64,000 nt of DNA from Tetrahymena thermophila SB210 (taxonomy: Eukaryota; Ciliophora; Oligohymenophorea; Hymenostomatida; Tetrahymenidae). Each line of letters opens with the position of its first letter. Positions within the stretch are counted from its first letter, which is position 1. Of the stretch, positions 3,273-42,591 are shown in pieces. A program made the position numbers and the translations under genes. The stretch spans positions 186,001-250,000 of the forward strand of contig NW_002476578.1 in assembly GCF_000189635.1 (NCBI RefSeq). The letters are read 5' to 3'. The notes below the pieces were generated by a model. That model worked only from the letters and a program-made list of their open reading frames with translations. It was not told the DNA's origin and searched no databases.

Positions 3273-4232
3273 TCAATAAGGCTTACTAGTATCACCAGCG
3301 AAATTTACAACATCTTATCCAACTCTTCTTACTCTGCTTTTGTGTTAATCAGCTTGGGTTCCTTGTTGCTAATTATTAGCTTGAGTATTTGTGGTTGTAT
3401 TATTTGTTGTGGCATTAGTAGAATTAGTGTTAGTAGTAGTAGTAGTAGCTGCTGTTTTTGTTTCAACTTACTTTACTGTTGTTTGGTTTTATTCATCAAT
3501 AACCTTTTATTCACTATTTTCCTTGTAATAGTAATCGGAGGTGTCGGCTACTGACCACTTAGGTGTGTCTTCAACTTGATAATCGATTTCACATACCTTA
3601 AAGAATTTGGCACTCTTAGTTTAGACAGGAATCAAACTAGATTATTTCCATTTAATACGGTTATTAGGTTGGGCGCAAAATTACCCATTATCAAGCTTGA
3701 TAATGTTGAAACTTTTGTGCTCGTGAGGAATCTCAGACCAAGCAGTGTTAAGGATGCCAGGGTCAGAGTGAGTGTGGTCAATTGTGAAAAGATACTAGCC
3801 AGGATAAGTCTTACCATTTTTCATAAGAACTTCGCAACGAAGACTAGCAATATTAACTTTGTTGACTACTGTGAAATCATAGCTGAAGCAATTCCATAAT
3901 TAGAGGTGATCTAAAGGGAGCAAGTTATCGAAATCAACATCCTTTTTCCATAAGAAAGCAGAAATAGGGAGCTTATCATATAAGGCACCGTATTCAGTGA
4001 AAAGAGTTTCAAACAAGAAAGCTCTGTCTTTCTTTGACTTAACAGTAATCCAAACACCTTCTTCTAATTCGCCGTGACCTTCTTCAAATTAGGTAACGTA
4101 TTCTTTTCTAATAAAAACTTCGGTGGGAGGGACATTGCCAACTAAGTAAGCGAAGTGATACTTCATAAATTGGCTGGTCAATTTAGGGGCAGAAACCTTA
4201 TTAAAGGTGCTTTACATTAATTTTTTAAACAT
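3273..4232 (-). CDS. Unknown ciliate protein with Thr/Asn/Gln-rich tail (full-length copy)
   Basis: A single-exon frame of 320 codons from ATG (complement of 4230-4232) to TGA (complement of 3273-3275), open only with TAA/TAG as Gln. The N-terminus MFKKLMQSTFNKVSAPKL is basic and Ser/Thr-containing, which could be a mitochondrial presequence. The first 220 or so residues are compact and aromatic-rich (FLWKKDVDF, YLFTIDHTHSDPG, IKLDNGQFCAQPNNRIKW). The last 90 are low complexity (polyThr, Asn/Gln) and end in a short basic stretch. I do not recognise the family. Codon use is better than in the surroundings, and two shortened relatives lie at 19.9 and 25.6 kb, so this is the intact parent. No transmembrane segment is seen. 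Confidence 0.85.
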
Positions 4233-7496: not shown

Positions 7497-10374
7497 TCAT
7501 AAACATAAAAGTAGTAATAAATTTATCTTTAAATTATTATCATAATTCATTGATTCAGATTTCACTTTTATAATAAATTAGTGTAAATTACTAAAAATGT
7601 TTAAATATTAAAAAAATTAACAAAAAAAGAAATTTTAATCTAATAAAATAAGTGTGCTTTATGGTTTTAAATTCATTTTTATAATTAAAAATAAACATAA
7701 TAAAAAGCAAATAATGTACTTTTCCTCAATATAAAGTTTCAAACTTGAGAGATTAGTGCACTTTGCTAAAGCTGAACGTAAACCTGATGCACCAACTGTA
7801 CTAATTTAATTCGATCTTTTTAAATATTGAAGAAAAAATATATTATTAATTAGTTATTTATAAAGAAAAAATGAACAAAAAATATGAAATTAATTAATTA
7901 ATAATAAATAAAAATTTTGAAAATAAAAAATGAGTTAAATTAACAAACTAAGAGAGAGAGAGAAAGAAAAAAACAAGGACAATAAAAAAATAAAATAAAA
8001 ATAAATCTAATAAATTGGAGATCTATTGTTTTAAATTTATTTTTAAAATAAAAAATCAATAACATAATACAAAATGAAAATAAAAGAAAATAAAGTTAAA
8101 TAAAAAGCTATTTAATAAATTAAAAGATCCTTAATGTTTTAAATTTTTTTTATAATTAAAAATATCACTATCCGAAACAAATAAACTGTTTTACTTAAGG
8201 TCAAGTACTAAATTTGAGAGGTTAGTGCAATTTACCAAAGCAGAGCCTAAGCCTAATACACCAATATCACCAATTTAATTACTACTTTTAATATATTTAA
8301 GAAAAAATATATAATTAATTTAATAGATAATTAGAAGGAAAAAATGAAAAAATAATAAGAAATGAATTAATTAATAATAAATGCAAGCACTAAAAATAAA
8401 AAAATGTGTTGAATTAATAAAGAAATTTAGAAAAAAGAAAAAAAAAGCAAGCAGAATAAAAAGATAAACAAAAGTAAATAAATTAAAAGACCTTTATTGT
8501 TTTAAATTCACTTTTAAAATTAAAAATATCACATTCCAAAAAAAATTAACTGTTTTTACTCCAGAAAAAGTATCAAATTTGAGAGATGAGTGCAATTTGC
8601 TAAACCAGAACCTAAGCCTGATACACCTATATCACCAATTTAATTTCCACTTTTTATAAATTTAAGAAAAAAATATAATTAATTAAATAGTAAGTTAGTT
8701 AGAAGGAAAAAATTAATAAAAAATATGAAATGAATTAATTTTTAATAAATAAAAATGCTAAAATAAAAAATGTGTAGAATTAATAAAGAAAGTTTGAAAA
8801 TAAAAAAAACACAAGCACAATAAAAAAAAAGTAAATAAATTTAAAGACTTTTATTATTTTAAAATTATTTTTTAAATTAAAAATATCACAATCCAAAAAA
8901 ATTAACTGTTTTTACTTAAGAATAAGTGACAAATTTGAGAGATGAGTGCAATTTGCTAAACCAGAACCTAAGCCTGATACACCTATATCACCAATTTAAT
9001 TTCTACTTTTTATAAATTTAAGAAAAAAATATAATTAATTAAATAGTAAGTTAGTTAGAAGGAAAAAATTAATAAAAAATATGAAATGAATTAATTTTTA
9101 ATAAATAAAAATGCTAAAATAAAAAATGTGTAGAATTAATAAAGAAAGTTTGAAAATAAAAAAAACACAAGCACAATAAAAAAAAAGTAAATAAATTTAA
9201 AGACTTTTATTATTTTAAAATTATTTTTTAAATTAAAAATATCACAATCCAAAAAAATTAACTGTTTTTACCTAAGAATAAGTGACAAATTTGAGAGATT
9301 AGTGCAATTTGCTAAACCAGAACCTAAGCCTGATACATCTATATCACCAATTTAATTTCCACTTTTTATAAATTTAAGAAAAAAATAGAATTAATTAAAT
9401 AGTAAGTTAGTTAGAAGGAAAAAATTAATAAAAAATATGAAATGAATTAATTTTTAATAAATAAAAATGCTAAAATAAAAAATGTGTAGAATTAATAAAG
9501 AAAGTTTGAAAATAAAAAAAACACAAGCACAATAAAAAAAAAAGTAAATAAATTTAAAGACTTTTATTGTTTTAAAATTATTTTTTAAATTAAATATATT
9601 TCATAACTTAAATCAAAATTAACTGTTTTTACCTAAGACGAAGTTCCAAATTTGAGAGATTAGTGCAATTTGCTAAACCAGAACCTAAGCCTGATACATC
9701 TATTTAATTTCCACTTTTTATAAATTTAAGAAAAAAATATAATTAATTAAATAGTAAGTTAGTTAGAAGGAAAAAATTAATAAAAAATATGAAATGAATT
9801 AATTTTTAATAAATAAAAATGCTAAAATAAAAAATGTGTAGAATTAATAAAGAAAGTTTGAAAATAAAAAAAACACAAGCACAATAAAAAAAAAAGTAAA
9901 TAAATTTAAAGACTTTTATTATTTTAAAATTATTTTTTAAATTAAATATATTTCATAACTTAAATCAAAATTAACTGTTTTTACTAAAGACTAAGTTCCA
10001 AATTTGAGAGATTAGTACAATTTCCTAAAGCAGAACCAATATCACCAATTTAATTACCTCTTTTTAAATATTTAAGAAAAAATATATAATTAATTAAATA
10101 GATAGTTAGAAGGAAAATATGAAGAAAAAATAAGAAATGGATTAATTAATAATAAATGAAAGCACTATAAATAAAAAAATGTGTTGAATTAATAAAGAAA
10201 TTTTGAAGAAAAAAAAAACACAAACACAATAAAAAGAATTCGCTTTTAAAATTAAAAATATCACAATCCAAAAAAATAAACTGTTTTTACTAAATGTAAA
10301 GTTACAAATTTGAGAGATTAGTGCAATTTGCTAAACCAGAAACTAAACCTGATGCACCAACTGCACCAATACCA
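7497..10374 (-). CDS. LRR protein, 3' block of eight one-repeat exons
   Basis: Eight exons on the minus strand, 5'-to-3': 10291-10374, 9985-10059, 9633-9713, 9272-9361, 8916-9005, 8560-8649, 8195-8284 and terminal 7497-7815. Internal exons begin with 1 nt and end with 2 nt of a split codon, so all are interchangeable in phase. Donors read GTAAAA and acceptors AAAAAG. Each exon encodes one leucine-rich repeat of the pattern NQIGDxGASGLGSALANC followed by TNLSNLTLxL. Lengths of 90, 84, 81 and 75 nt differ by whole codons only. The terminal exon runs into TGA at 7497-7499; the earlier TGA used by the sister gene at 22.3 kb is TGC here. Probably continuous with the block at 16042-18912. Function unknown; LRRs imply protein binding. 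Confidence 0.75.
8560..9984 (-). repeat. Four near-identical ~356-bp exon+intron cassettes
   Basis: Exon starts at 8560, 8916, 9272 and 9633 are 356, 356 and 361 bp apart. Intron sequence (for example AGTAAGTTAGTTAGAAGG and GTGTAGAATTAATAAAG) is repeated essentially letter for letter, as conserved as the exons. That implies very recent tandem amplification or gene conversion of a whole exon+intron unit. Cassettes elsewhere in the arrays share only the exon and splice-site neighbourhoods. Confidence 0.9.
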
Positions 10375-10597
10375 CTTTTTATTTATTTTAGAAAAAATAT
10401 ATAATTAATTAATTAGTTAGTTAGAAGAGAATTAAATAGATAAAAAATAAAAAAATAAAAATAAAAATAAAAATAAAAATAAAAATAAAAAAAATAAATT
10501 AATTTAAAAAATTAATTTTTAATAAAAAGAGAAAAAGAGAAAGAGAAATAAAAAGAGAAAGTAAAAATAAATCAAATATTATATTCATTCAAATCAT
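10375..10597. repeat. Simple-sequence junction (AAAAAT)n
   Basis: Short runs of AAAAAT and GAGAAA mark the boundary between the LRR cassette array and the three-gene block. No gene is seen here. Confidence 0.6.
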
Positions 10598-12340
10598 TCA
10601 ATTTTATTGTTATATTTTTTATTATTTAGTTTTCAATTTAAACTAAGTTTTTTCGATTTAAACTTATTCTTGAATATTTTAACTATGAGCATTATCAAAT
10701 TGTTAAATTTAATTATATTATTATTCGGGATAATATTGAGAATAATTTTATTCATCATATTATTAATTATTATAAAATTAAATACCTTACATTTACATTT
10801 ACATCTATAAATTATACATTTAGTTATATAATTGATTATAATTTTAAATCATTTCTTATGGTTATAAAGATTTAGATTCGGAATTACAATTAGAATTAGA
10901 ATTACAATTACAATTACAATTAGAATTGCATTCGCAATTTGATTCACAAGAACATTCAAAATTACAATTACAGTTAGATTTAGAATTAGAATTACAGTTA
11001 GAATTAGAATTAGAATTAGAATTAGAATTAAATAATTAATAATGAATTATATCTTAATTAAATAATTTATTATCTACACATTCAGTAAAATTACCTTCAA
11101 AAATCAATTTAAACTTATGTCTCAATATGAATAATAAATAAGGTAATCTTTCATTTTATAAAAATTACTATAACTATTAATCTTGTTATAAAATTCTATT
11201 AGATTCTATTCTATCTGAGATACAATTTTTCATCTTATTTAATAAATAAATAATTTATTTATTTTTATTAGTTTTAGTTTAATATCTTTTTCTTGTAATT
11301 TAATCAATTTTATCTATACCAGTTTCTTTAAATTATTGAGTTTTTCTATTATTATAAATTATTCCAAAATCTGTTATAATATCAAGTAAATCTTGAGAAG
11401 AAATATTTTTATAATCCAAATATTATCTTTAAATTGTTGAATTTAAAATTTCAATTAATCCATAAATAATTTCATTACAATTGAATAATTTTCTTATAAA
11501 TTTCAATAAAATACTAGCTTCTGATAGTAATAAGAAACTAGTTTTTGTAATAAAACAATCATCTTTATTTTAAATCAATTATGTAATATAATGTTCAAAA
11601 CATTCTGAATCTAATTATTTTTTAATTTCTTTTCCTAATCTTGGTAAAGTTATACTTCTAAATAATTTTTTAATTAATTTATTCATAAAGAATTCAAATT
11701 ATTCATATGATACAATTGATCCTATTAAACCTGAAGCAATTTATAATGATTCTTAACTAAATCTCAGTTAATTGAATTAACAAATAACATCTGATTTTTA
11801 AAATAGATTATCGAGTTTAGGAACAATTAATTAATTTTATTCTAAATTCCATATTTTATATTATTTTTCTTCTGATTCGATTTTAAACATATCAGAAACA
11901 TCAAATAATTTTTCTTTTCTTTTGTTAATATATTTTTCAACATAATTTTTAATTAGATTTGAAATATTATTTCCTTGTATTTAATCAAGTATTTTCTTTA
12001 CATTATCCTATGAAATTCCATTTTGAGGCAATTTGAAAAATTCTTATAATGAAACATATTTAATGTTTACTTAGAATGTATCTTGTATTTTTTGATTTAA
12101 AATTCCGAAGGTTTAATCATCGTGTGAAATTGTACCATTTTTTACAATATCTCTTGTTCTTGGAATGTTATTGAAAAAGTTAGTGTTTATGTAATTTTTG
12201 TTAACTTCAGATAATGATCCCATATCATGTCCTTATTCGATCTTATGTATTTTTTAAAATAATGATTTAAAAACATTATAAGAAATAACTTTGACATATT
12301 CTTGATTAGATTGAGTTTGAGAAGAAACCAAAGAAGACAT
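10598..12340 (-). CDS. Unknown protein with Asn-Ser/Cys-Asn repeats and Gln/Tyr-rich tail
   Basis: An intronless frame of 581 codons, ATG at complement 12338-12340 and TGA at complement 10598-10600, packed with TAA/TAG Gln codons. Residues 1 to about 430 are ordinary globular or helical sequence (FNNIPRTRDIVKNG, ITLPRLGKEIKKQL, LPYLLFILRHKFK). A repeat of alternating Asn with Ser or Cys follows (NSNSNSNCNSNS, CNCNCNSNSN). The C-terminus is rich in Gln, Asn, Tyr and Met (MQMQMQ, SQYYPEQQYNQ), a prion-like composition. I do not recognise the family. It sits first in a block of three same-strand genes that interrupts the LRR arrays. No transposase motif (DDE, RT) was noticed. Confidence 0.8.
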
Positions 12341-12986
12341 TTAAAATAAACTTTTTGTTGTATTAATAGAAAATAAAGTTTTGTGAAACTAAAATTTGAT
12401 TTTTTTTTATTTTTATTTTTATATAAGATTTATTATATAACTTAGTAATAAAATTATTTCAATTTTTTTAATAAAAGTAAACTTTAAAGATTTTATCATT
12501 AAATTGTAATAAAATGTCTAATATTTACAGAGTTTAATATGGATTATAAAAATTATCAAACGATTAGAAAAAATAAGCTGAAAATTAATATGATTTCAGA
12601 ATAAAAGAAATAGAGAAAAATTAAGTTTTTTTAATTGAAAAATTAATATAATATGTAAAAAATAAGCTAAATTTTGATATATAGAGATATGCACTTATTT
12701 TTATATTTACTAAAATTGTTACTGATATGATTTATGAATTTTTAGTCATTTATATGGAAAAGTTTTTATAATTTATGAAGAGAATTAGTTTTTTTTGATT
12801 TAAAAATTTAAAAAACTATAAGTTTTTTATTTTTTTTGTTTATTTTTTTTATTTTTTTTTCTTTTTTTTATTTTTTTTTTTGTTGTTTTTTTTTTTGTTT
12901 TCTGATTATATAAGATTTCATCAATTCAGACTATTTGTCATCAAAAAGTATCTTTTATAATTTAGAGTTGAATAATCAATTCATTT
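12341..12986. other. Intergenic with long poly-T/T-rich tract
   Basis: No gene seen. The T-rich tract at about 12812-12902 (T8-T12 runs broken by A, C and G) is nearly identical to the tract at about 14440-14525, including the flanks TTTGTTGTTTTTTTTTTTG and the CATCA/TTCAGA sequence after it. Both tracts lie just downstream of the stop codons of the two paralogous genes to their right, marking a tandem duplication. Confidence 0.6.
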
Positions 12987-14234
12987 TCAATACTATTTTA
13001 TATGTTTAATTTCATTGCCAAATATTACAGTATTCAATTATTCAGATTTTACAGCCTACTTTATTTCTCGCGTTAATTCTACACGAAAATAAATACCATA
13101 AGTTTGAAATGTATTACTTTCATTGAAAAAGCTTTTTAAATATATTTTTTATTATTCTTTATTTTTTATAATAAAACTAAACCCTTATTTATCAAGTTAC
13201 TATTTTTTCTCAACTGACAGACAATTGTATAGATTGTAACATTTCAATTCATCTATTGATTCATCGTTTAAGATTTTTTTCAACAATGGATATCTTTTTT
13301 TGAATAAAGAGACACGTTTTTGTTCATTATGATCTTATTTTGCATGTGTCATTCTATCAACAGACTTAGATCTTTTCGATCTATTTTTATTCTTATTTTG
13401 ATAAAGAAATTTAGCCATTTCCTTTGGTTTTTATAATTCTTCTTTATTTGAATCCACTGTAAAATTTATATAATATTATATTTTTTTATGATCTTTTTCG
13501 TATTTAAGAATAATTTCTGGAATGATGTAAAAAATACCATCGAAAAAGGTAAAAACAAGCTAGAATTTTTACATATTTTGTTAAAAATCTTTCCAATTTT
13601 TTTCAACAAAAGATTCTACTGATTGGACAATATAATTTGACAGAAAATTAAACATCATTTCTCTCTATATTTCAAATTAAGATTTAAAATGAGATAACAA
13701 TTCATCTTCTTGTTTCTAAATATCTTTATTATATTCTAACATATTTTCTTCTCTTTCCAAAAAACGACATAAAAGAGTTTATAATTCATCTTTTTATTCC
13801 TTAGCTTTAGAATCTTATAAATCAAGTTTCACTTCAAATTTGGATGGTTGTTCTTTGATATTCTTACTGTTGAATTCACTAAGAAGTTTTGTTGTTTCTT
13901 CATTTTGGTTTGAAAATTTCAAAGCATTATCTCTTATTATAGATGCTAAAACTTCCAAGCATGATTTTTCTTATTATTAAGGTTGCTATTAAGGTTGCTA
14001 TTGAGGTTGCTATTGAGGTTGCTATTAAGGTTGCTATTGAGGTTGCTATTAAGGTTGCTATTGAGGTTACTTTTGAGGTTACTCTTGAGGTTACTATTAT
14101 TATTTCCCCTTATTTCCCTTAATAAAATTAAATTTTTCTTCATAAAGTTTTAATTCCTCTCCATTGAGTTCACTTAAGCTTGTAATATTTTTACCAGAAA
14201 GAAGTCTGATCATACTTTACCTCAAAATATCCAT
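12987..14234 (-). CDS. Unknown protein with N-terminal Pro-Gln repeat; paralogue of 14604-15722
   Basis: An intronless 416-codon frame, ATG at complement 14232-14234 and TGA at complement 12987-12989. The N-terminus (MDILRQSMIRLLSG) is followed by about a dozen tandem PQQQ tetrapeptides from a 12-bp repeat, in which Gln codons mix CAA, TAA and TAG. The rest is a charged, helix-prone segment (LEREENMLEYNKDIQKQEDE) and a C-terminal region with YYINFTVDSNKEE that aligns with YYQIIFTINFQEE in the next gene. I do not recognise the family. A plausible upstream ATG in another frame stops after 20 codons, so this start is preferred. The neighbour to the right is a diverged tandem duplicate. Confidence 0.8.
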
Positions 14235-14603
14235 TCGAGCTTATTTTTTATTCTATATCGAGGAATCATTTTACTGATTTTCATGTTATTTATTAGGATT
14301 ATCCTAAATATTTTATTTTTTATTTCTTGTACTTTTATCCATTATACTGTAATACTGTTTATTTCTATTCTTTTAAATTTATATTAATGTTTCACAATTG
14401 TATTTTTTCAATTTTATTTTATCTAATCTATAAATTAAAACTAAAAGTTTTTTATTTTTTTTGTTTATTTTTTTTATTTTTTTTTCTTTTTTTTTATTTT
14501 TTTTGTTGTTTTTTTTTTTGTTTTTTGATTAATATAAAAATTTCATCATTCAGATAAAGATCTAAAATCTAAACTCTGTTTTAAGCATATCATAATTTCA
14601 TTC
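14235..14603. other. Intergenic, T-rich tract repeated from 12.8 kb
   Basis: About 370 bp with no gene. It contains the second copy of the T-rich tract (about 14440-14525) and serves as the 3' flank of the gene to its right and 5' flank of the gene to its left. Confidence 0.6.
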
Positions 14604-15722
14604 TCATTTTTTTTTTAATTGTTTTTCAGCTGATTCGCTAATTATTACAGTATGTTTCATTATGAAATCTTCTGTAGTGTATCTTATGACTAAGTTGCCT
14701 TCATTGTCATATAAAGAATTTATTTCTACTTTTTCTTTGCCTTTGAAAGGAGAAAATTCAACATCATTATTTTAAAGTATAGTCTTCAGTTCATTGGAAA
14801 GATGATCTTATATTTTGTAATCTTCTAAACTTTCTTTAAATTTAAGATCATCTGTCAAAAGTAAGCACATAGTATTTGGTTAAGAAAATACATATTTTTC
14901 ATCATTTTTAGATTCCTCTACATTAGATGTCTCTATAGGTATTTCTGTCACAGGAATTTAATCTGTAGGTATATTTTCCGCCTCGCTAACCTATTCTTTA
15001 GATTCTTCTACATCGGAGCCATCTACAACGGATTTATCTACAACGGATTTATCTACATTAGATTTCTATTTAGGTATTTCTTTTTCTTCTTAGAAATTTA
15101 TAGTGAATATTATTTGATAATATATTTTTCTATAATCTTTTTGTACCTACCAATTCTAAGGGATTTAAAATTCTTCTTAATCAAAATCATGAGCAACTTT
15201 AAATCTGGTATCAATCTAAATTGTATCGTTTAAATAACAGAAAACAAATTATAATCTTTCTATAAGACAAAAGACATATTATCTCAAATATTAATTTGTT
15301 TCATCGCAACTATAACCAAAATAATCGTGGCATTAATTAATTTGTTTTCCAAACATAACAAAATATCTACTTATGAATTCAAACATGAGCTTATTTTTCA
15401 ACCCAAAGTATTTTGTATATTCCTAATTTAATTCTTTCTCTCCTTATATTTCTTTCCCTTTTTTCAATTTATCTATTAATTCAGCTATTGTTTTTTCAGT
15501 ATTCTCAACTTCTTAAGATACTAAATCGAGATCTAATTTTTATGTAGATTACAATGAATGATTACTCTTGCATAATTTTTTGAGAATTTCCTTTGCTTCC
15601 TATTTGCGATTGAATTTCTCATTAGTAAAGAATTTAAATTAAGCTATCATGAATTTAATATTTTTCTATTATATCCATTCTATAAATTCTACTCTGCCAG
15701 AAAGTTTCTAAATATCCTACAT
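14604..15722 (-). CDS. Unknown protein with acidic Val-Asp repeats; paralogue of 12987-14234
   Basis: A 373-codon frame, ATG at complement 15720-15722 (MQDIQKLSGRVEF) and TGA at complement 14604-14606. The same frame stays open upstream through a 12-bp GQKT repeat to about 15900, with no other ATG. The true N-terminus could therefore come from an upstream exon, conceivably the LRR cassettes at 16042-18912. Features include a charged helical first half, a central CHDYFGYSCDE segment, and VDKSVVDKSVVDGSDVEES repeats. The YYQIIFTINFQEE stretch aligns with the neighbour at 12987-14234. Family unknown. Confidence 0.75.
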
Positions 15723-16041
15723 ATTTTATTTAAGTGCTTTTTATTTTTTAGTCTCTCTTTCAGATTATTCTTCATAATCTTTTATAGTATTAATTCCAAA
15801 TTAATTTTGGTCCTACTATGTTTTTTACCTTATTTATTCGGTTTTTTATTCGGTTTTTTATCCGGTTTTTTATCCAGTTTTTTATCCCTTATTAAAAATT
15901 TGTTAAAAATGTTTTTTAAAAAGTATAAAAAAGTAGCCCTCCAAGGAAAATACTTGGAAGGCGAAAAAATAGCAGGCAGAGAGGTTTTTTTCTGCTTACT
16001 GATCTAAAAATGCTCCGATTGTAAATTCTCTGTGTTTTTAC
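15723..16041. other. Hairpin-rich spacer with 12-bp repeats
   Basis: Holds a five-fold 12-bp repeat (GGATAAAAAACC on the minus strand, about 15833-15892). Two consecutive hairpins follow at about 15933-16000: GCCcTCCAAG pairs with CTTGGAaGGC, and AGCAG pairs with CTGCT. On the minus strand the hairpins are followed by TTTTTT. Either an untranslated or intronic stretch, or a small RNA gene; undecided. Confidence 0.45.
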
Positions 16042-18912
16042 TTAAGGGATATATCAACATTTGAGAGATTAGTGCAATTCCCTAAACCAGAGCCTAAGTC
16101 TGATGCACCTTCATCACCAATTTAATTTTTACTTTTTTAATATTGAAGAAAAAATAAAAAAATGAATTAATTAGAGGTAAAAAAATGAAGAAAAATATGA
16201 AATAAATTAATTAAAAACAAATTTAAAAGTTAAAAATAAAAAAATAAATTAAATTAATAAAGAAAAAATGAAAGAAAGAAAAAAAAAAGAAACACAAGCA
16301 AAATAAAAGTTAAAAAAAATAAATAAAATAAATTAAATGAGCTTTTTCATTTTAAATTCATTTTTATAATTAAATAAATCACAATCAAAAATAAATAAAC
16401 TATTTTTACTAAAGGTTAAGTCTCAAATTTGAGAGATTAGTGCAATTCCCTAAACCAAAGCCTATGCCTGATGCACCAACAGCGCCAATTTAATTATCAC
16501 TTTTAAATATTGAACAAAAAATATATTATTAATTAGTTAATAGAAGCTAAAAATTTGAATGAATTAATTTATAATAAATGCAAAAGTTAAAAATAAAAAA
16601 TTAGTAAATATAACATACAAAACAAAAAACACAAGAACAATAAAAAGAAAAAGAAAAATAAATAAAATATTAAAAGAGCTTTATTGCTTTAAATTCATTT
16701 TTAAAGTTAAAAATATCACAATCCAAAACAAATAAACTGTTTTTACTAAAGTGTTAGTGCCAAATTTGAGAGATTAGTGCAATTTGTTAAAAGAGAACAT
16801 AAACTGGATGCACCTTCATCACCAATTGTATTCGAACTTTTTATTTATTGAAGATAAAATATATTACTAATTTGCTAGAATGAAAAAATGAAGATAAAAT
16901 ATGAAATGAAATTATTAATAATAAAAAGTTTAAAATAAAAAAATGAGTTAAATTCATTAAAAAAGTTAAGAAAAAAAAACAGAAGGAAAATAAAAATGAA
17001 AAAGAAAAATAAATCAAATAAATTGAATTAGCTTATTGCTTTAATTTTGTTTTTAAAATTAAATATATCATAATCTAAATCAAATAAACTATTTTTACTT
17101 AAGGTTAAGTTTCAAATTTGAGAGATTAGTGCAATTTGCTAAAGCAGAACTTAAGCCTGATGCACCAACTGCACCAATTTTATTATCTCTTTTAAATATT
17201 GAACAAAAAATATAATATTAATTAGTAAATAAGTTAGTTAGTTAGGAGGAAAAAATAAAGAAAAAATATGAAATTAATTAAGGGTAAAAGTTAAAGTTGA
17301 AAATAAAAAAATGATTTTAATATAAAACAAAGAAAAAATACACAAACACAAGAACAAATAAATCAAATAAATTAAAAGACCTTTACTGTTTTAAATTCAT
17401 TTTTAAAATTAAAAATATCTCAATTTAAAACAAATAAACTGCTTTTACTCAAGGATAAGTTCCAAATCTGAGAGATTAATGCAATTTCCTAAAGCAGAAG
17501 CTAAGCCTAATACACCTATGTCACCAATTTAATTTAATCTTTTTAAATATTCAAGAAAAATATATTATTAATTAATAAATTAATTAGTTAGCTAGGAGGA
17601 AAAAATGTAGAAAATAAAAAGAAATGAATTAATTAATAATAGTTGCAAATGATAAAATTGAATAAACTAGTTATAGTAAAAGAAAGTTAGAAGAAAAAAA
17701 ACATAAAAAAAATAAAAAAGAAAAAGAAAAGTAAATAAATTAAAAGACATTATAGTTTTAAATTTATTTTTTAGTTAAAAATAGCTTAATCTAAAACAAA
17801 TTAACTGTTTTTACGTTAGTTTAAGGGACAAATTTAAGAGATTAGTGCAATTTTTAAAAGCAGAACTTAAGCTTGATGCACCTTAATCGCCAATTTTATT
17901 ATACCTTCATAAATATTGAAGATAAAATATATAATTATTTATTTAATCAGTTATGAAATAATAAATAATAAATACAAAAGCTGGAAATAAAAAAATGATA
18001 TTAAAACAGCTTTATTGTTTTAGTAATTCATTTTTAAAATTACAAATATCACAATCCAAAACAAATTAACTATTTTTACTGAAGGCTAAGTGTCAAATTT
18101 GTGAGATTAGTGCACTTTTCTAAAGCAGAACCTAAACTGGATGCACCTTCATCACCAATTTAATTACCACTTTTTATATATTGAAGAAAAAATATATTAC
18201 TAATTAGTTAGTAGGAAAAAATGAAGAAAAATGCATTATTAATGAATAAAAAGAAAAGTTAAAAATAAAAAATGATTTTAATGAACAAAGAAAAAAAAAA
18301 TCAAAGCACAATAAAAAAGAAAAAGAAAAATAAATCAAATAAAAAGCTTTCAAATAAATTAAAAGAATTTTATTGTTTTAAATTCATTTTTAAAATTAAA
18401 AATATCACAATCTAAAGCAAATAAACTGTTTTTACTCAAGTACAAGTGTCAAATTTGTGAGTTTAGTGCAATTTGCTAAAGCAGAACCTAAGCTTGATAT
18501 ACCAACTGCACCAATTCCACGAAATGCTTCAAATTCACCAAGAAGACTAACATAATATAAACTTTTTAAATATTGAAGAAAAAATAAATAAATAATTAAT
18601 TAGTTAGTTAGGAGAAAAAAATGAAGAAAAAATATGAAATTAATTAATAGTGAAAGTAAAAGTTGAAAATAAAAAAAAAAGAGTTAAATTACCAAAAAGT
18701 TAGAAAAAAAATAAACACAAACACAATAAAAAAAAATAAATCAAATAAATTAAAAGACCTTTATTGTTTTAAATTCATTTTTTAAATTAAAATATCACAA
18801 TCAAAAAAATAAAGTGTTTTACCCAAGTCTAAGTGTCAAATTTGTAAGATTAGTGCAATTTGCTAAAGCAGAAAATAAGTCTTATAAACGTTTATCGTCA
18901 TAGAATTAGTTA
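16042..18912 (-). CDS. LRR protein, 5' block of nine one-repeat exons
   Basis: Nine exons on the minus strand, 5'-to-3': 18823-18912, 18436-18561, 18080-18169, 17815-17904, 17449-17538, 17099-17188, 16747-16836, 16410-16499 and 16042-16131. Eight are exactly 90 nt. That at 18436-18561 is 126 nt because its 5' part is replaced by a longer in-frame sequence (LLGEFEAFRGIGAVG). All have the 1-nt/2-nt split-codon phase and GTAAAA donors. The repeat motif is GASGLGSALANC followed by TNLSNLTL. The leftmost exon still has a donor, so the gene continues, either to the gene at 14604-15722 or across the three-gene block to 10291-10374. The 5' start exon is unresolved; a possible piece lies near 19430-19470. 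This sequence is like the array at 22337-25124. Confidence 0.7.
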
Positions 18913-19893
18913 CTTTTTAAATATTAAACAAAATATATTGTATTAATTTGTAAGTTTGAATGAAAATATGAATAAAAAATATGAAATGAATTAATTAATG
19001 AATAGTAAAAGCAAAAGTTAAAAATCAAAAAATGAGTTAAATTAACAAAAAAAGAAGAAAAAATATAGCATAATAAAAACAATAAGAAAATAAAATAAAT
19101 AAAAAGTTATCAAATAAACTAAAAGAGCTTTATTGTTTAAATTCATTTTTAAAATTAAAATTTCTCAATCCAAAATAAATAAACTGTTTTTATCAAATAA
19201 AAGTGTAAGAAACCAAAAATGAAGAAAAATAACAGAAAATAATAAATGGATAATAAACAATTAAAACTTGGAAGTGAAAATTTAGTTAAAAAAGCTAAAA
19301 AATATTTTTATAAATAAAATGAATGAAAATTGAAGTAAATTTGTTAGAAAATTATTTTACAGATAAATTGAAAGTTAAAACAAATAAATATTAATGATAA
19401 TAATATTTATAAATTAAATATACCTAAGATTAATATGGAGAACCTAATGAGATTAGAGTGAAGAGTTTAAAAACTTTTTTTATTTATAAAAATAAAATTA
19501 AATAATATTAATAAAAAATTTATAATTACTTCTTCTAATTCTTCGTAGTATTTAATCTTTTACATAGTTTTTATAAAAAAATATTGAATATCATTTTATG
19601 GAAATTTAATTAATTAATTATAAATGGAAAAAAAGAACAAATAAATTGTAATAATTATCAAATATGAATTTATAAATTTGCTTTTAGGAAGAGATAATAC
19701 TAAAAAGTTTGTGTAACATCATTATTTAATCTTAATATTTCTATTTTAAACACGCGCTTAAAAATATAGTAGGAATTAGTTATGGGTAGTTAAGTGTTGA
19801 AAAAATTCTAGTAATTGTTGAACTTAAATTTTATACCCAAGACCCAACGCAAAAAATTTAATTTATACCCAATAGGGTTGCCTTGTATAAATC
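18913..19893. other. Decayed cassette remnant and duplicated 5' flank
   Basis: Near 19180-19200 a cassette remnant keeps intron-like sequence, but its donor and LRR exon are gone. The stretch 19380-19860 is closely repeated at about 25340-25860 (both contain GATTAGAGTGAAGAGTTTAAA). It probably contains the promoter and first exon of the LRR gene, which I could not define. Confidence 0.5.
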
Positions 19894-20328
19894 TCAATAA
19901 TTTATTTTTATTTAATAAAATTTAATTACTTCATGAACTTTACTTTTTTCTACTTAGCTTAACTAAGCTGTATTTGCGGTTGTATTATTTGTTGTGATAT
20001 TACTAGAATTAGTGTTAGCAGTAGTAGTAGATGCTGTTTTTGTTTCAACTTAGTTTACTGTCGTTTGGCTTTATTCATCAATAACCTTTTATTCACTAGT
20101 TTCCTTGCAATATTAATCGGATGTATCGGCTACTGATTACTTAGGTGTATCATCTACTTGATAATCAATTTCACATACTTTAAAACTCTTATTTTAGACA
20201 GGAATCAAACTAGATTATTTCTATTTAATATGGTTATTAGGTTGGGTGAAGTTATATTTCATAAATTGACTTGTCAATTTAGGGTCAGAAACCTTTTTAA
20301 ATGTGCTTTACATTAATTTTTTAAACAT
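19894..20328 (-). pseudogene. Internally deleted copy of the 3273-4232 gene
   Basis: An open frame of 145 codons (ATG at complement 20326-20328, TGA at complement 19894-19896) whose first 25 residues (MFKKLMQSTFKKVSDPKLTS) match the full-length gene. It then jumps directly to the FTQPNNHIK segment, losing about 160 residues in frame, and continues through the KVCEIDYQVDDTP and Thr/Asn-rich parts. Its last residues differ from the parent. The reading frame is intact despite the deletion, so a short product is possible. I call it a pseudogene because the conserved core is gone. Confidence 0.65.
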
Positions 20329-22336
20329 TTCTCTTTTCTTTGTACTTATTAATCAAAATATATGTTTATTACTTTAATTTATTTTCTTTAACTTTCTATA
20401 ACTTTCCTAATTGGATATTTATATTCAAAAAGATCAAATAAAGATTTTTTATTTTCTTGAATTGCAATAAATTAAATTATATGAACATCTCTATCTATTT
20501 GATTGTGTGTTTGTTTTCTGATAAATATTTGTTTTCTGCTGATATCTTATAACTCTTAATAAAAAATCAAATTGATAGCTCAAAGTAATTGTTTTGCCTT
20601 GTAATTTCTTATTCAATTCGTAATCCAAACAAAATTCTTTGCATTATTTTTTTAATTAGTTGCTGATTAAAATTATATTCATTTAAAACATTTGTGCAAA
20701 GATAATAAGCATAAAAAAATGTTCTTATTTATTATTTTAAACTTTAAGTCTGTTTTGATTTAAAAGATTTAATTTTGTAGTTATTTTTTAGTAAAAATTG
20801 CTTATAAAAAAATAGAATACAAATGTAGTTAGTTTTAGGAAAAAATATCTTTTATAATTAGTTTTATTGAATTAAAATTTTTTTATTTTGTATACTTAAA
20901 ACCTTTTATTATAAATTTAAAATAAATAAAAGCAAAATTTGAATAAATATATAAATAATTATGATTGGAAATATTGTAACCATCTTTCTTTATTTTTAAA
21001 AAAATTAATCAATAACTCTTATTACATCTATTTTTCTTTATAGAACTTTATTGAAATTTAGAGTTTATCTATTTTTGAATTATTAATAAAAATTCGCTGA
21101 AATTCATTTTTTTTCCTTCAATATTTCTCGAATTTTTAAGTATTTACTTTATTTCATTCATATTTGAAATAAAAACAAATTTTCAAAGATTCCATTGATT
21201 TATTTTTTTAACAAAAATTGACTCAATAAGATTTTCTTAAATATTCATTAGAAAAACATATCCAAAATTAAAAAGGCAATTAATTCTAGTAAAATAGTTA
21301 TATTTGTTTTTTCTGCCATTTTTTTAGTTGATTTTGAATTAAAATATGAAAATCTATTAAAATAAATTTAACAAATATTAATATGAATGTTCTTTTAAGA
21401 TAAAAGTTTGAGAGTGAGTATATGTTTGTTTTTTAATTAGCTTATCAAATTCGCATGCAAAAAATTTTTAATTTATAAATTAATAATTAGTTAATGCATT
21501 TCTAATTCATATTTCAAATATTTTCTTTGTTAAAAATTGTATTTTCAATATCTTTTTTTGTTATTTTGAAAATATTTATTTTTTCTAATAATTTGTATTT
21601 TATTTAATGTCCTTTTTTGCTATTTTTTAAATATAAAAAGGAATTATTTGCCTACTATTCCTCTACAAAATTTTTATAAATTTAAATTTAACATCTTTTT
21701 TACTCAATAGAATTAAAATTATATCACTCTTATTTTAATTGAGAAAACAAATCAAATTTATTAAATTAATATGTTTTTAATTTATCTTTAGATAAATTAA
21801 TTTTTATTGCTTAAAATAAATGTAAATTCATTTAATGGTTTTTTTAATAGTAATTCAAATGAATGAATGAATGAATGAATAAATAAATAAATAGTTAGTA
21901 GTCTTAAATATCTTCAAGATTAAGTCATACTAAATTTTCTCTTTAAAATTAAAATAATAACTATGAGCCACTATATAAAGGATAATTAGAATGCAAACTT
22001 AGTAGAATATAAACCCATTTTATCAAATATACACGTATTTCTGTGAACCAATTTATTTGAGTAAAACTAAATTTTTTATTTTTTTATATTTAATAAGCTA
22101 TTTGTTAATATACAAAAATATCATATTGATAAACATAAAAGCAGTAATAAATTTATATTTAAATTATTATTATGATTCATTGATTCAGATTTAACTTTTA
22201 TAATAAATTAGTGTAAATTACTAAAAATATTTAAATATTAAAAAAATTAACAAAAAAAAAAATTTTAATCTAATAAAATAAATGTGCTTTACTGTTTTAA
22301 ATTCATTTTTATAATTAAAAATAAACATAATAAAAA
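20329..22336. other. AT-rich spacer, second copy of duplicated region
   Basis: No gene seen. Homologous to the spacers after 4232 and after 26293, and in its right part (22050-22280) to 7410-7640, the 3' flank of the first LRR gene. An (ATGA)n/(ATAA)n microsatellite lies at about 21859-21893. Confidence 0.6.
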
Positions 22337-25124
22337 TCAAATAAACTACTTTTCCTCAATATCAAGTATCAAATTTGAGAGATTAGTGCAATTTGCTAAA
22401 GCAGAACGTAAGCTTGATGCACCAACTGCACCAATTTAATTCGATCTTTTTAAATATTGAAGAAAAAATATATTATTAATTGGTTAGTTAGAATGAAAGA
22501 AAGAAAGTAAGAAAAAATGAAAAAAAAATATGACATTAATTAATTTATAATAAATGAATATGTTGATATAAATGAGTTAAATTAACAAACCAAGAGAGAG
22601 AAAGAAAAAAACAAAGACAATTAAAAATAAAATAAAATAAATCAAACAAATTGGAGAACTATTGTTTTAAATTTATTTTTAAAATTAAAAAAAAAATAAC
22701 ATATTAACTGTTTTTACCTAATATGCAGTAGCAAATTCGAGAGATTAGTGCAATTTGCTAAAGCAGAGCCTAAGCCTGATGCACCTATATCACCAATTTA
22801 ATTACCACTTTTTATTTATTGAAGAAAAAATATAAAATTAATTAATAGTTAATTGTTCGAAAAGAAAAATGAAGAAAAAATATGAATTAATTTTTTTAAT
22901 ATATATATAAAATGAAAATAAAAGAAAATGAAGACAAATAAAAAGCTATTAAAAAAATTAAAAGAGCTCTAAAGTTTTAAATTTATTTTAATAATTAAAA
23001 ATATCACAATCCGAAAGAAATAAACTGTTTTACTGAAGGTAAAGTGTCAAATTTGAGAGGTTAGTGCAATTTGCCAAAGCAAAGCCTAAGCCTGATGCAC
23101 CTATATCACCAATTTAATTACCACTTTTTATTTATTTAAGAAAAAACATATAATTAATTTAATAATGTTTTAAATTCATTTTTCAAATTAAAAATATCTC
23201 AATCTAAATCATTTTACTCAAGGAGAAGTGTCAAATTTGAGAGATTAGTGTAATTTTCTAAAGCAGAACCTAAGCCTAATGCACCTATGTCACCAATTTA
23301 ATTTCCACTTTTTAAATATTGAAGAAAAAATATATAAAAATACAGATAATTAGAATAAAGTATCTCGCGCTTATGTAATGGACTTTAAATTTCAAAAACT
23401 ATAAATTTGTTAAAAATCCATTATTTTTTATGCAAGAGATACTTTATTCTAACTATCTGTATAGTAAGAAGAAAAAAATGAAGAAAAAAAAAATTAATTA
23501 ATCAATTAATAATAATTGTATATGATAAAATTAAATAAATGAGTTATATTAATAAAGAAAGTTAGAAGAAGAAAAAACATAAACACAATAAAAAAGAAAA
23601 AAAAAATAAATTAATTAAAACACATTTATTGTTTTAATTTCATTTTTTAAATTAAAAATATCGCAATCCAAAAAAATTAACTGCTTTTACTTAAGGTAAA
23701 GGGTTAAATTTAAGAGATTAGTGCAATTTGTAAAAGCATAACCTAAGCCTGATGTACCTTCATTACCAATTTCATTTCCACTTTTTAAATATTGAAGAAA
23801 AAATATATAATAAATTATTTAATCAGTTAGAACGAAAGAAAGAAGAAATAATAAGAAATGAATAAATTAATAATAAATACAAAAGTTGAAAATAAAAAAT
23901 GGTATTAAAACAGCTTTATTATTTTAATTTCATTTAAAAATTTTTTAAAATATTGCAATCTAAATCAAATAAACTGTTTTACCTAAGGCTTAGTGTCACA
24001 TTTGTGAGATTAGTGCAATTTGCTAACGTAGAACATAAACTGGTTGCACCTTCATCACCAATTTGATTGTCACTTTTTAAATATTGAAGAAAAAATATAT
24101 TAGTAATTAGTTAGAAGGAAAAAATGAAGAAAAATACGTTATTAATGAATAAAAAGAAAAGTTAAAAATAAAAAAATAATTAAATTAACAAAAAAAAAAA
24201 AATTAAAGCACAATAAAAAAGAAAAATAATTCAAATAAAAAGCTTTCGAATAAATTAAAAGAAAGAGCTTTAATGTTTTAAAATTATTTTTATAATTAAA
24301 AATATCATAATCTAAAACAAATAAACTGTTTTTACTCAAGGCTAAGCGTCAAGTTTGTAAGATTAGTGCAATTTGCTAAAGCAGAACCTAAGCTTGATGC
24401 ACCAACTGCACCAATTTTATTTTCAAGACCAAGAAAAAATATATTACTAATAAGATAGAAGGAAAAATTAAAGAAAAATATGTTATTAATAAATATAAAG
24501 AAAATTTAAAAAAAAAATGATTTAAATTAACATAGAAACAAAAAAAAAATCAAAACACAATAAAAAAGAAAAAGAAAAATAATTCAAATAAAAAGCTTTC
24601 TTATAAATTAAAAGAAAGAGCTTTAATGCTTTAAACTCATTTTTAAAATTAAAAATATCACAATCTAAAGCAAATTAACTGCTTTTACTTAAGTCTAAGT
24701 GTCAAATTTGTGAGATAAATGCAATTTGCTAAAGCAGAACCTAAGCTAGATGCACCAACTGCACCAATATTATTGTCACTTTTTTAATATTGAAGAAAAA
24801 AGAAATAATTAATTAGTTAGTTAGGAGGGAAAAATGTAGAAAAAAAATGAAATTAATTGATTGTAAAAGTAAAGTTGAAAATAAAAAAAACGAGTTAAAT
24901 TACCAAATAATAAGAAAAACAATAAACATAAACACAATAAAAAGAAAATAAATCAAATAAATTAAAAGTTTTTATTGTTTTAAATTCATTTTTATAATTA
25001 AAATATTACAATAAAAAAAATAAAGTGTTTTTACCAAAGTTCAAGTGTCAAATTTGTTAGATTAGTGCAATTTGCTAAAGCAGAACCTAAGTCTGATGCA
25101 CCTTTATCACCAATTAATTTGTAA
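22337..25124 (-). CDS. LRR protein built from nine one-repeat exons (second gene copy)
   Basis: Exons on the minus strand, 5'-to-3': 25035-25124, 24689-24778, about 24336-24425, 23983-24072, 23691-23780, 23218-23307, 23034-23123, 22718-22807 and terminal 22337-22445. Internal exons are 90 nt with identical phase, and each encodes one LRR (GDIGASGLGSALANC followed by TNLSNL). The terminal exon ends LILDIEEKQFI and TGA (complement 22337-22339). The exon at 24336-24425 has no AG acceptor because the normal CACTTTTT is replaced by CAAGACCAAG; it is probably skipped, which keeps the frame. The 5' exon is unresolved. The gene is a duplicate of the LRR gene at 7.5-18.9 kb, without the three-gene block. 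Confidence 0.75.
23341..23461. mobile_element. MITE-like inverted-repeat element at a TA site
   Basis: A 121-bp element inside an LRR intron. The left end TACAGATAATTAGAATAA and the right end (reverse complement TACAGATAGTTAGAATAA) form terminal inverted repeats that continue for about 30 bp (AAGTATCTC), with partial pairing to about 45 bp. The TACAG..CTGTA ends and TA flanks are typical of Tc1/mariner-type elements. No transposase fits inside. Neighbouring cassettes lack it, so it inserted after cassette amplification. Confidence 0.75.
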
Positions 25125-25648
25125 CTTTTTAAATGTTGAATAAAAATATTTTATTAATTGGTAGGTTTGAAGGAAAAAATGAATATAAAATTTGAAATGA
25201 ATTAATTAATTAATAGTAAAAGCAATGAGTTTAACTAACAAAAAAAGAAGAAAAAAAATACAAACATAATAAAAAAATAAGAAAATAAATTCAATAAAAA
25301 GATATCAAATAAAATAGAGAAGAAAATTTGTATGAGAAAAATTATTATAGAAATAAATTGAAAGTTAAATACAAAAAAATATTAATGATAATAATATTTA
25401 TAAATTAAATATACCGAAGATTAATATGGAGAATCTAATGAGATTAGAGTGAAGAGTTTAAAAACTTTTTTTATTTATAAAAATAAAATTAAATAATATT
25501 AATAAAAAATTTATAATTACTTCTTCTAATTTGTCATAACATTCTATCTTTTACATAGTTTTTATTAAAAAAAATAATGAATAGCATTTTATGGAAATTT
25601 AATTAATTATAAATGGAAGAAAAAAAAACAAATAAATTATGAAAATTA
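25125..25648. other. Duplicated 5' flank of the second LRR gene
   Basis: No gene resolved. 25340-25640 repeats 19380-19690 with few differences. It probably contains the promoter and first exon of the LRR gene at 22337-25124. Confidence 0.5.
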
Positions 25649-26293
25649 TCAAATATTAATTTATAAATTTGCTTAGGAAGAAATAACACAAAAAATTTTG
25701 TGTAAAATCATTATTTAATCTTAATATTTCTACTTTAAACATGTGCTTAAAAATATAGTAGGAATTAGATAGAGAAGGGTAGTTAAGTGTTGAAAAAATT
25801 CTAGTAATTATTGTACTTAAATTTTAAATTTAATTAAATAAAAATAGAAAATAGAAATTTATACAAAGCCACCCCATTCGGTATAATCATCAACTTCACT
25901 TTTTTCTACTTAGCTTAACTAAGCAGTATTTATAGTTGTATTATTTGTTGTGGTATTAGTAGAATTATTGTTAGCAGTAGTAGTAGCAGTAGCTGTTGTT
26001 TTAGCTGTTTCAACTTAGTTTACTGTTGTTTGATTTTGTTCATCAGTAACCTTGTATTCACTAGTTTTTTTGCAATATTAATCGGAGGTATCGGTTACTG
26101 ACTACTTAGGTATAACATCTACTTGATAATCGATTTCACATACCTTAAAACTCTTATTTTAGGCAGCAATCAAACTAGATTATTTCTATTTAATATGGTT
26201 ATTAGGTTGGGTGAAGTGATATTTCATTAATTGACATGTAAATTTAGAGGCAGAAACCTTATTAAAGGTGTTTAACATTAATTTTTTAAACAT
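25649..26293 (-). pseudogene. Second internally deleted copy of the 3273-4232 gene
   Basis: ATG at complement 26291-26293 (MFKKLMLNTFNKVSASKFT). It has the same in-frame loss of the core as the 19.9 kb copy, with the same junction (HFTQPNNHIK), then the KVCEIDYQVDV segment and a Thr/Asn-rich tail. The frame stays open to TGA at complement 25649-25651, but the last 80 or so codons are low-complexity spacer sequence, so the original stop seems lost. Both deleted copies share the junction, so the deletion predates their duplication. Confidence 0.6.
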
Positions 26294-42215: not shown

Positions 42216-42288
42216 GGGGATCTAGCTCAAATGGTAGAGCGCTCGTTTAGCATACGAGAGGCACTGGGATCAATGCCCAGGTTCTCCA
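42216..42288 (+). tRNA. tRNA-Ala (AGC), copy 1
   Basis: A 73-nt cloverleaf: acceptor GGGGATC with GTTCTCC, D stem GCTC/GAGC, anticodon stem CTCGT/ACGAG with anticodon AGC at 42249-42251, and T stem CTGGG/CCCAG. The alanine identity pair G3-U70 is present. There is one T-T mismatch in the acceptor stem (position 6-67). A discriminator A and a T6 run (pol III terminator) follow. Internal A and B boxes are intact. No intron. Confidence 0.95.
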
Positions 42289-42364
42289 ATCTTTTTTATT
42301 TTTTAATTAATAAATATTTAGTTTTAAAAATAATATAAGAAAAAAATAGCGAAAAATATTGTTC

Positions 42365-42437
42365 GGGGATCTAGCTCAAATGGTAGAGCGCTCGTTTAGC
42401 ATACGAGAGGCACTGGGATCAATGCCCAGGTTCTCCA
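42365..42437 (+). tRNA. tRNA-Ala (AGC), copy 2
   Basis: Identical over all 73 nt to copy 1, anticodon AGC at 42398-42400, followed by TTTTTT. Flanks differ from copy 1 except for a few bases, so each copy probably has its own terminator and is transcribed separately. Confidence 0.95.
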
Positions 42438-42518
42438 ATTTTTTATTTTTATAAAAAAAATAAAAAAATGTTTAGATTAAACAATAATAGATATAACTTT
42501 GATCTCAATATATTGTAA

Positions 42519-42591
42519 GGGGATCTAGCTCAAATGGTAGAGCGCTCGTTTAGCATACGAGAGGCACTGGGATCAATGCCCAGGTTCTCCA
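42519..42591 (+). tRNA. tRNA-Ala (AGC), copy 3
   Basis: Third identical copy, anticodon AGC at 42552-42554, followed by TTTTTT. Spacing between copies is 149 and 154 bp. Confidence 0.95.

Follow-up and report, generated by a model that had tools for sequence, protein, structure and literature searches.

Leucine-rich repeat genes of Tetrahymena thermophila built from 90-nt exon cassettes: hypervariable codons and a probable modular diversification of the recognition surface

In the variable lymphocyte receptors of lampreys, leucine-rich repeat (LRR) modules in variable number are assembled somatically into receptors with a variable concave face. This report concerns a cluster of LRR genes whose arrays, unlike those receptors, stand in the assembled genome; they lie in a 64,000-nt stretch of Tetrahymena thermophila SB210 (contig NW_002476578.1, positions 186,001 to 250,000 of the forward strand; hereafter the window), part of an apparently somatic genome assembly of 101.0 Mb in 445 contigs. 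A telomerase fragment of this genome agrees with residues 152-253 of PDB chain 2r4g_A, which we take to be from T. thermophila, at 101 of 102 residues, the first aligned one being the exception. In Tetrahymena, Xiong et al. (2019; main text of PMC6564038) have described thousands of young LRR genes with exons of exactly 90 bp and an extreme phase-2 bias; their introns are near 257 bp, 1 to 51 90-bp exons occur per gene, and the genes lie in tandem arrays. Group III, to which such genes belong, is marked by a pericentromeric or subtelomeric position in the germline. The same text describes extensive ectopic recombination and association with the non-LTR (non-long terminal repeat) retroelement REP, proposes exon shuffling and puts forward bacterial recognition as a possible function. 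Its RNA-seq data indicate that many 90-bp-exon LRR genes are expressed, and a legend states that RNA-Seq supports the arrays; the term alternative splicing is not used in that text. A second described system is the brown-algal ROCO family, for which PMC11378527 reports uniform, shuffled phase-2 LRR exons with splice variants, and four concave-face sites under positive selection. ROCO exons are 72 bp and encode a 23-residue LRR, whereas those of Tetrahymena are 90 nt and encode 30 residues, and the ROC-COR domain of the algal proteins has no counterpart in array A of the present locus, where only LRR matches were found in Pfam at E <= 0.01. The cassette architecture and its core interpretation, exon shuffling, were thus already published for Tetrahymena in 2019. 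What is added here is the hypervariability of individual codons and the lack of linkage across introns, neither of which was found in the literature searched: the main text of PMC6564038 uses neither "positive selection" nor "hypervariable", and the search found no paper on introns more conserved than exons.

A profile was made from the window's own exact 90-nt exons and both strands were scanned with it. It recovered 26 LRR cassettes (E 1.3e-13 to 7.7e-27), without exception on the minus strand, and the first match beyond these on either strand had an E-value of 4.9. The cassettes form three arrays, A with nine cassettes (25124-22337), B with nine (18912-16042) and C with eight (10374-7497), each with at least three such exons and, by self-comparison, with a DNA-level repeat that includes the intron. 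The 26 exons in three minus-strand arrays reported in the initial annotation are thereby borne out. Part of the range given there, 7497-25124, is free of cassettes: about 16.03-10.61 kb contains three other open reading frames (ORFs). The cassettes, together with the short cap exons that probably precede arrays A and B, are as follows.

25521..25556, minus strand: array A cap exon 1 (ATG TAA AAG ..., TAA/TAG = Gln), putative gene model, common to B
25415..25464, minus strand: array A cap exon 2, phase 2 at its end, putative
25035..25124, minus strand: cassette A1, 90 nt, by profile and splice sites
24689..24778, minus strand: cassette A2, 90 nt, by profile and splice sites
24336..24425, minus strand: cassette A3, 90 nt by profile boundary, no acceptor AG; omission keeps the frame
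23983..24072, minus strand: cassette A4, 90 nt, by profile and splice sites
23691..23780, minus strand: cassette A5, 90 nt, by profile and splice sites
23218..23307, minus strand: cassette A6, 90 nt, by profile and splice sites
23034..23123, minus strand: cassette A7, 90 nt, preceding intron 94 nt
22718..22807, minus strand: cassette A8, 90 nt, by profile and splice sites
22337..22445, minus strand: terminal cassette A9, GG in place of the donor GT, open to TGA
19530..19565, minus strand: array B cap exon 1, putative
19424..19473, minus strand: array B cap exon 2, putative
18823..18912, minus strand: cassette B1, 90 nt
18436..18561, minus strand: cassette B2, 126 nt, in frame
18080..18169, minus strand: cassette B3, 90 nt
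17815..17904, minus strand: cassette B4, 90 nt, acceptor ATGAAG
17449..17538, minus strand: cassette B5, 90 nt
17099..17188, minus strand: cassette B6, 90 nt
16747..16836, minus strand: cassette B7, 90 nt
16410..16499, minus strand: cassette B8, 90 nt
16042..16131, minus strand: cassette B9, 90 nt, donor present; 5.7 kb to the next cassette
10291..10374, minus strand: cassette C1, 84 nt
9985..10059, minus strand: cassette C2, 75 nt
9633..9713, minus strand: cassette C3, 81 nt
9272..9361, minus strand: cassette C4, 90 nt
8916..9005, minus strand: cassette C5, 90 nt, unit 98.6% identical to C4
8560..8649, minus strand: cassette C6, 90 nt
8195..8284, minus strand: cassette C7, 90 nt
7497..7815, minus strand: terminal cassette C8, GG in place of the donor GT, open to TGA at 7497

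The description of the internal exons as almost all exactly 90 nt is accurate for 20 of 24, and the remaining four, of 126 (18561-18436), 84 (10374-10291), 75 (10059-9985) and 81 nt (9713-9633), are all multiples of three. The GTAAAA donor assigned to internal cassettes is present in every one (24/24); the terminal cassettes A9 and C8 carry GGAAAA at that place, and their frame runs to a TGA at 22337 and 7497, respectively. The AAAAAG acceptor, said to be common to all, proved overstated: 21 of the 26 cassettes have it, three have TAAAAG, one has ATGAAG and one (24425) has no AG. The common split-codon phase, 1 nt in and 2 nt out, is confirmed in the 25 cassettes with an acceptor, as judged from the open frame, and the introns are accordingly of phase 2. 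TAA and TAG have to be taken as Gln in these genes, in line with ciliate usage. An in-phase TGA occurs in none of the 23 window cassettes having both splice sites, and the other frames contain one in 19 and 11 of the 23. Chance repeats were considered as the origin of the cassettes and are ruled out by the profile E-values together with these reading-frame counts.

The comparison was extended to a sample consisting of the window and 20 further stretches (~182 kb) around some of the best genome-wide matches, all loci picked for LRR content. In this sample the profile matched 277 times at E <= 1e-3. Both splice sites are present in 258 of these matches; the acceptor is missing from 11 and the donor from 4, and 4 lie at an edge. 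By a splice-site rule that tries the 90-nt boundary first, 250 of the 258 cassettes are exactly 90 nt and 256 are a multiple of three; an in-phase TGA occurs in two, exons of 91 and 89 nt that both lie in stretch L012, and each of the other frames has a TGA in 217 and 215 cassettes, respectively. The 258 include two (L018, L021) that a retroelement in fact interrupts and that satisfied the splice rule by chance. Leaving out eight cassettes with odd acceptors gives n=250, with 242 exactly 90 nt, 248 a multiple of three and 2 with an in-phase TGA. The median intron is 258.5 nt (n=220), near the 257 bp given for T. thermophila and not the ~232 bp given for T. malaccensis in the main text of PMC6564038. 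With its 90-nt exons, phase-2 introns, arrays of at least three such exons and this intron median, the locus fits a small cluster of the young group III 90-bp-exon LRR genes of Tetrahymena.

The frame is kept by length and phase together, and some cassettes have been tandemly copied with their introns. C2-C6 appear to be close tandem copies including introns, and C4 and C5 are 98.6% identical over 360 nt; they differ at four exon positions, all amino-acid changing, and at 1 of 238 flanking nt. A2 and A3 are similar neighbours, and array A has colinear cassettes in common with B and C, although the totals are unequal; by position the pairs are A1-B1, A2/A3-B2, A4-B3, A5-B4, A7-C7 and A9-C8. The expectation that cassettes could be gained or lost without a frameshift is supported by the tandem copies, the A-B-C colinearity, the unequal totals and the lengths in multiples of three (256/258).

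Exon variation between cassettes is greatest at codons 1, 6, 7 and 28 and at the junction codon split across the intron, less at 3, 15 and 26, and the rest of the exon is near-constant. In 250 exact exons a single base accounts for 85-100% at most positions, and mostly for 70-100% in the 60 intron nt on either side. Strong mixing is seen at codon 1, at the first and third positions of codon 28 and at the final two nt of the exon; codons 3, 6, 7, 15 and 26 are intermediate. With the splice dinucleotides left out, 15 exon nt are more variable than any of the 44 near intron nt. The best Pfam match of array A is LRR_6 (E 1.8e-17), and its relatives in the PDB by sequence include 5irm, which we take to be NOD2, Ran GTPase-activating proteins and axonemal LRR chains. 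General LRR geometry would put residues 26, 28, junction and 1 along the concave sheet, directly followed by codons 6 and 7, and codons 28, junction and 1 are thus predicted to stand on the concave strand expected to touch a binding partner.

These patterns are probably best explained by modular diversification of the recognition surface, through tandem copying and exchange of cassettes combined with diversifying selection at concave residues. Each cassette, one 90-nt exon between phase-2 introns plus ~258 nt of intron, codes for one 30-residue LRR; copying and exchange in the germline nucleus would alter how many repeats there are and in which order; and concave residues 28, junction and 1 would be altered by diversifying selection favouring the recognition of varied partners. 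The initial annotation had inferred a diversification role, which the hypervariable codons now support through sequence comparison.

The contrast between exon and intron was measured by comparing pairs among 246 cassettes (17,807 comparable pairs, gap events counted) at 15 chosen nt, namely codons 1, 6, 7 and 28 and the junction codon. Where the flanks differ by 0-2% (16 pairs), the chosen nt differ at 0.18-0.19 per nt and the rest of the exon at 0.02-0.03; at 2-4% (189 pairs) the chosen nt reach 0.42, with a plateau near 0.5 at larger flank difference. Among 22 non-overlapping pairs with flanks differing by <=3%, the rate is 0.276 per nt at the 15 nt, 0.039 at the other 75 and 0.019 in introns, and 91 of the 155 exon differences fall in the 15 nt (25.8 expected); this result is unchanged when the eight odd-acceptor cassettes are dropped. 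Pairs drawn only across stretches (12, <=4%; L009 and L010 are on one contig) give 0.461, 0.067 and 0.031, respectively, and in every one of the 21 stretches, which contribute 1 to 8 pairs each, the chosen nt differ more than the introns, by a median ratio of 7.8. When positions were picked on one half of the loci, the held-out half had 45/76 (9 pairs) and, with the halves exchanged, 41/71 (12 pairs) of its differences at those positions, against 12.7 and 11.8 expected. Two artefacts were rejected: mismatches hidden by gaps in AT-rich introns, since the contrast held with gap events counted, and post-hoc picking of the variable codons, since the held-out loci agree.

Exposed LRR positions are commonly variable, and relaxed constraint, which would leave exposed residues to vary without any selection for diversity and have purifying selection and homogenisation keep the remainder similar, would draw on that fact; we consider it an unlikely account. 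A median Ka/Ks of about 0.4, below 1, given for the youngest LRR genes in the main text of PMC6564038 is also in its favour. Free variation is nevertheless hard to reconcile with variable nt that exceed the flanking introns by ~8-fold (21-stretch median) to 15-fold (22 closest pairs) and that also exceed nearby synonymous sites (pN 0.29 vs pS 0.02). Nor does the GC and amino-acid make-up of the variable codons approach intron composition: codons 1 and 28 together with the two final exon nt have a GC content of 40%, vs 17% in introns, and the residues prominent at codons 1 and 28 are Asp, Asn, Tyr, Ser and Gly, where intron composition would give Phe/Leu/Ile, which argues that these codons are not simply drifting. 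Between loci, synonymous codon differences amount to 6% at 18 conserved codons and amino-acid differences to 82% at codons 1, 7 and 28. Taken with the composition, this contrast favours selection for diversity over simple relaxation.

Linkage between variable positions was assessed in the 250 exons and across 220 links, counted before removing those with a non-90 exon. It is strong for codons 6-7 (z 23), clear for 1-3, 1-7, 26-28 and 28 with the last two nt (z 3.4-5.6), and slight for 7-28 (z 2.0, p 0.03), 1-6 (z 1.8) and 7-15 (z 1.7); for codons 1-28 it is not significant (z 1.3). Across the intron no linkage was seen, either between the last two nt and the next codon 1 (z 0.1) or between codon 28 and the next codon 1 (z -0.5), so that residues meeting there keep no detectable memory of one another. 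Adjacent cassettes are alike at codons 1 (z 3.2) and 7 (z 2.6), as tandem copying predicts. Because residues 28, junction and 1 would line the concave sheet, the intron lies inside the predicted concave face, and a cassette swap would therefore bring new residues side by side.

Linkage that declines with distance is also a point for an account in which old diversity is reshuffled: ancient variable-codon alleles would be moved between cassettes by short gene conversion, with the introns and the rest of the exon homogenised. Codon 1 provides a second point, in that all three nt are changed in 5 of 22 close pairs vs 2.1 expected if nt were independent, an excess which suggests that short conversion tracts also move codons between cassettes. 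Against this account, there is little synonymous rise beside the variable codons (0.009, 0.017, 0.063, 0.076 and 0.065 at codons 2, 4, 5, 8 and 27); this objection is qualified by synonymous differences of 0.12, 0.168 and 0.111 at codons 9, 25 and 29. We regard reshuffling of old alleles as a possible but doubtful explanation of the whole pattern.

Besides the gene-level Ka/Ks, several points weigh against diversifying selection on a modular surface. The sample was drawn by likeness to a single cassette of the window; the concave placement is drawn from general LRR geometry and is a prediction only; codons 6 and 7 have no clear place on the concave strand; and the slight linkage of codons 7 and 28 implies that exchange within the exon is not free. 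In addition, path-averaged differences at the variable codons (<=3% pairs) give pS 0.33 and pN 0.29, synonymous change being as high as non-synonymous, a rise that plain amino-acid selection does not predict. The high pS may stem from multi-step codon changes, because single-nt changes at codons 1 and 28 are mostly non-synonymous (1 synonymous and 21 non-synonymous in 37 pairs, a small count). The raised pS within variable codons could also be taken as a sign of targeted mutagenesis in the style of diversity-generating retroelements, but single-step changes that are nearly all non-synonymous do not fit such a process, and the adenines that stand first or second in codons 2, 18, 21 and 24 are 96-100% constant; we hold it to be very improbable. 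Adenine-directed mutagenesis in particular was rejected as unsupported, as adenines outside the variable codons are near-constant, though selection could hide some changes. Within the present data, selection for diversity and short conversion are inseparable.

Several of the acceptor-less cassettes outside the window are split by an insertion. Five full copies consist of a ~400-bp element with a short-repeat tail, lying between 11-13 bp duplications of cassette sequence that centre on AAATTGGTGAT at exon codons 3-6. The element, or AT-rich relatives with a similar tail, was located in the sampled stretches L014 (9.25-9.65 kb), L017 (7.33-7.78 kb), L021 (5.0-5.4 kb), L024 (6.4-6.8 kb), L027 (minus strand), L009, L013, L018 and L026. 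In the window plus the 20 LRR-picked stretches, all eight strict tail matches (8/8) mark an insertion at AATTGG, exon nt 9, in one orientation, and a ninth, looser match (L013) lies at the same exon position; none of the strict matches is inside the window. Genome-wide, AATTGG follows the element's other end by 0-4 nt in 22 of 29 exact copies, the context having been seen for a minority of the 22; of the 7 exact copies without AATTGG, the one examined (L014) stands at an LRR site that is altered. Matches to the element as a whole number 41. Its tail motif occurs 166 times, and the main text of PMC6564038 reports the 54-bp tail of Tt.REP at 169 copies; from the count alone, we infer that the two tails are the same. 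That main text describes LRR introns as REP targets and uses none of the terms "target site", "site-specific" and "SINE". The L014 copy contains a box-B-like GGTTCGAATCC and no match to a loose box-A pattern, a scan for tRNAs at six retroelement loci detected none, and in the window, L014 and L024 the only Rfam matches were the window's three tRNA genes; origin of the element from a tRNA is therefore not established. Since cassettes can be lost without a frameshift, insertions may be tolerated by skipping. It is conceivable, though we think it improbable, that the exon, with its hypervariable surface codons, is both a combinatorial recognition module and a fixed retroelement landing site, at which cutting could feed the recombination behind cassette reshuffling and so give a unicellular eukaryote a retroelement-driven, germline-encoded recognition repertoire.

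At the level of whole genes, array A may form a complete gene model of 304 residues, with two short cap exons, nine cassettes and a stop; omission of A3 is suggested by its lack of an acceptor and would keep the frame. Array B has cap exons similar to those of A but no terminal cassette. On the minus strand of the window the cap start motif is found only at 25556 and 19565, with none for array C, and the strong cap-region matches within the window, among the matches listed, are only the array A and B copies. Self-comparison revealed a tandem unit of ~6 kb (leader, a gene here called U, LRR array, tail), of which two copies are clear and a third is partial. Arrays B and C could represent opposite ends of a single array, with ~5.4 kb and three other ORFs between them. 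We give about even odds that they are instead broken halves or fragments and not genes: B has cap exons without a terminal cassette, C has a terminal cassette without a cap, and both lie in a tandem unit with ~5.4 kb of other ORFs between, although the cassettes of both are in frame, with no in-phase TGA and with odd lengths that are all multiples of three. If B9 is left unspliced, its frame stays open over the 731 nt examined, toward the next ORF (16131-15400, minus strand).

The three ORFs between B and C are all on the minus strand (14604-15722, 12987-14549 and 10598-12499), and the parts of them scanned yielded nothing in Pfam at E <= 0.01. Distant relatives of the first two occur, with their order unchanged, on another contig, C106. 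There, within stretch L036 (4577-5710), the LRR cap region recurs (82.6% over 155 nt) ~0.6 kb before the relative of ORF 14604-15722, and no cassette was found in that stretch. The open frame of B9 toward the next ORF, together with this cap copy beside an ORF relative, makes a cap-LRR-ORF fusion gene possible. Gene U is present three times next to the arrays, each time on the minus strand (3273-4232, 19894-20328 and 25649-26293). The copy at 3273-4232 is the longest, its residues ~29-186 being absent from the other two, and no Pfam match was obtained for the two copies scanned. An isolated piece at 44674-44882, on the opposite strand, is 71% similar to B9 and its upstream intron region, and three similar tRNA-Ala (AGC) genes lie in tandem at 42216-42591 on the plus strand.

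Because near-identical introns flank every exon, codon-level change in these genes can be read against an internal yardstick, and the positions which this yardstick singles out include the predicted binding face. The Tetrahymena case, if true, would stand beside that of the brown algae. Should orthologue and strain data agree, Tetrahymena would offer a tractable laboratory model for the way in which exon swapping builds up a large receptor-like repertoire in a unicellular eukaryote.

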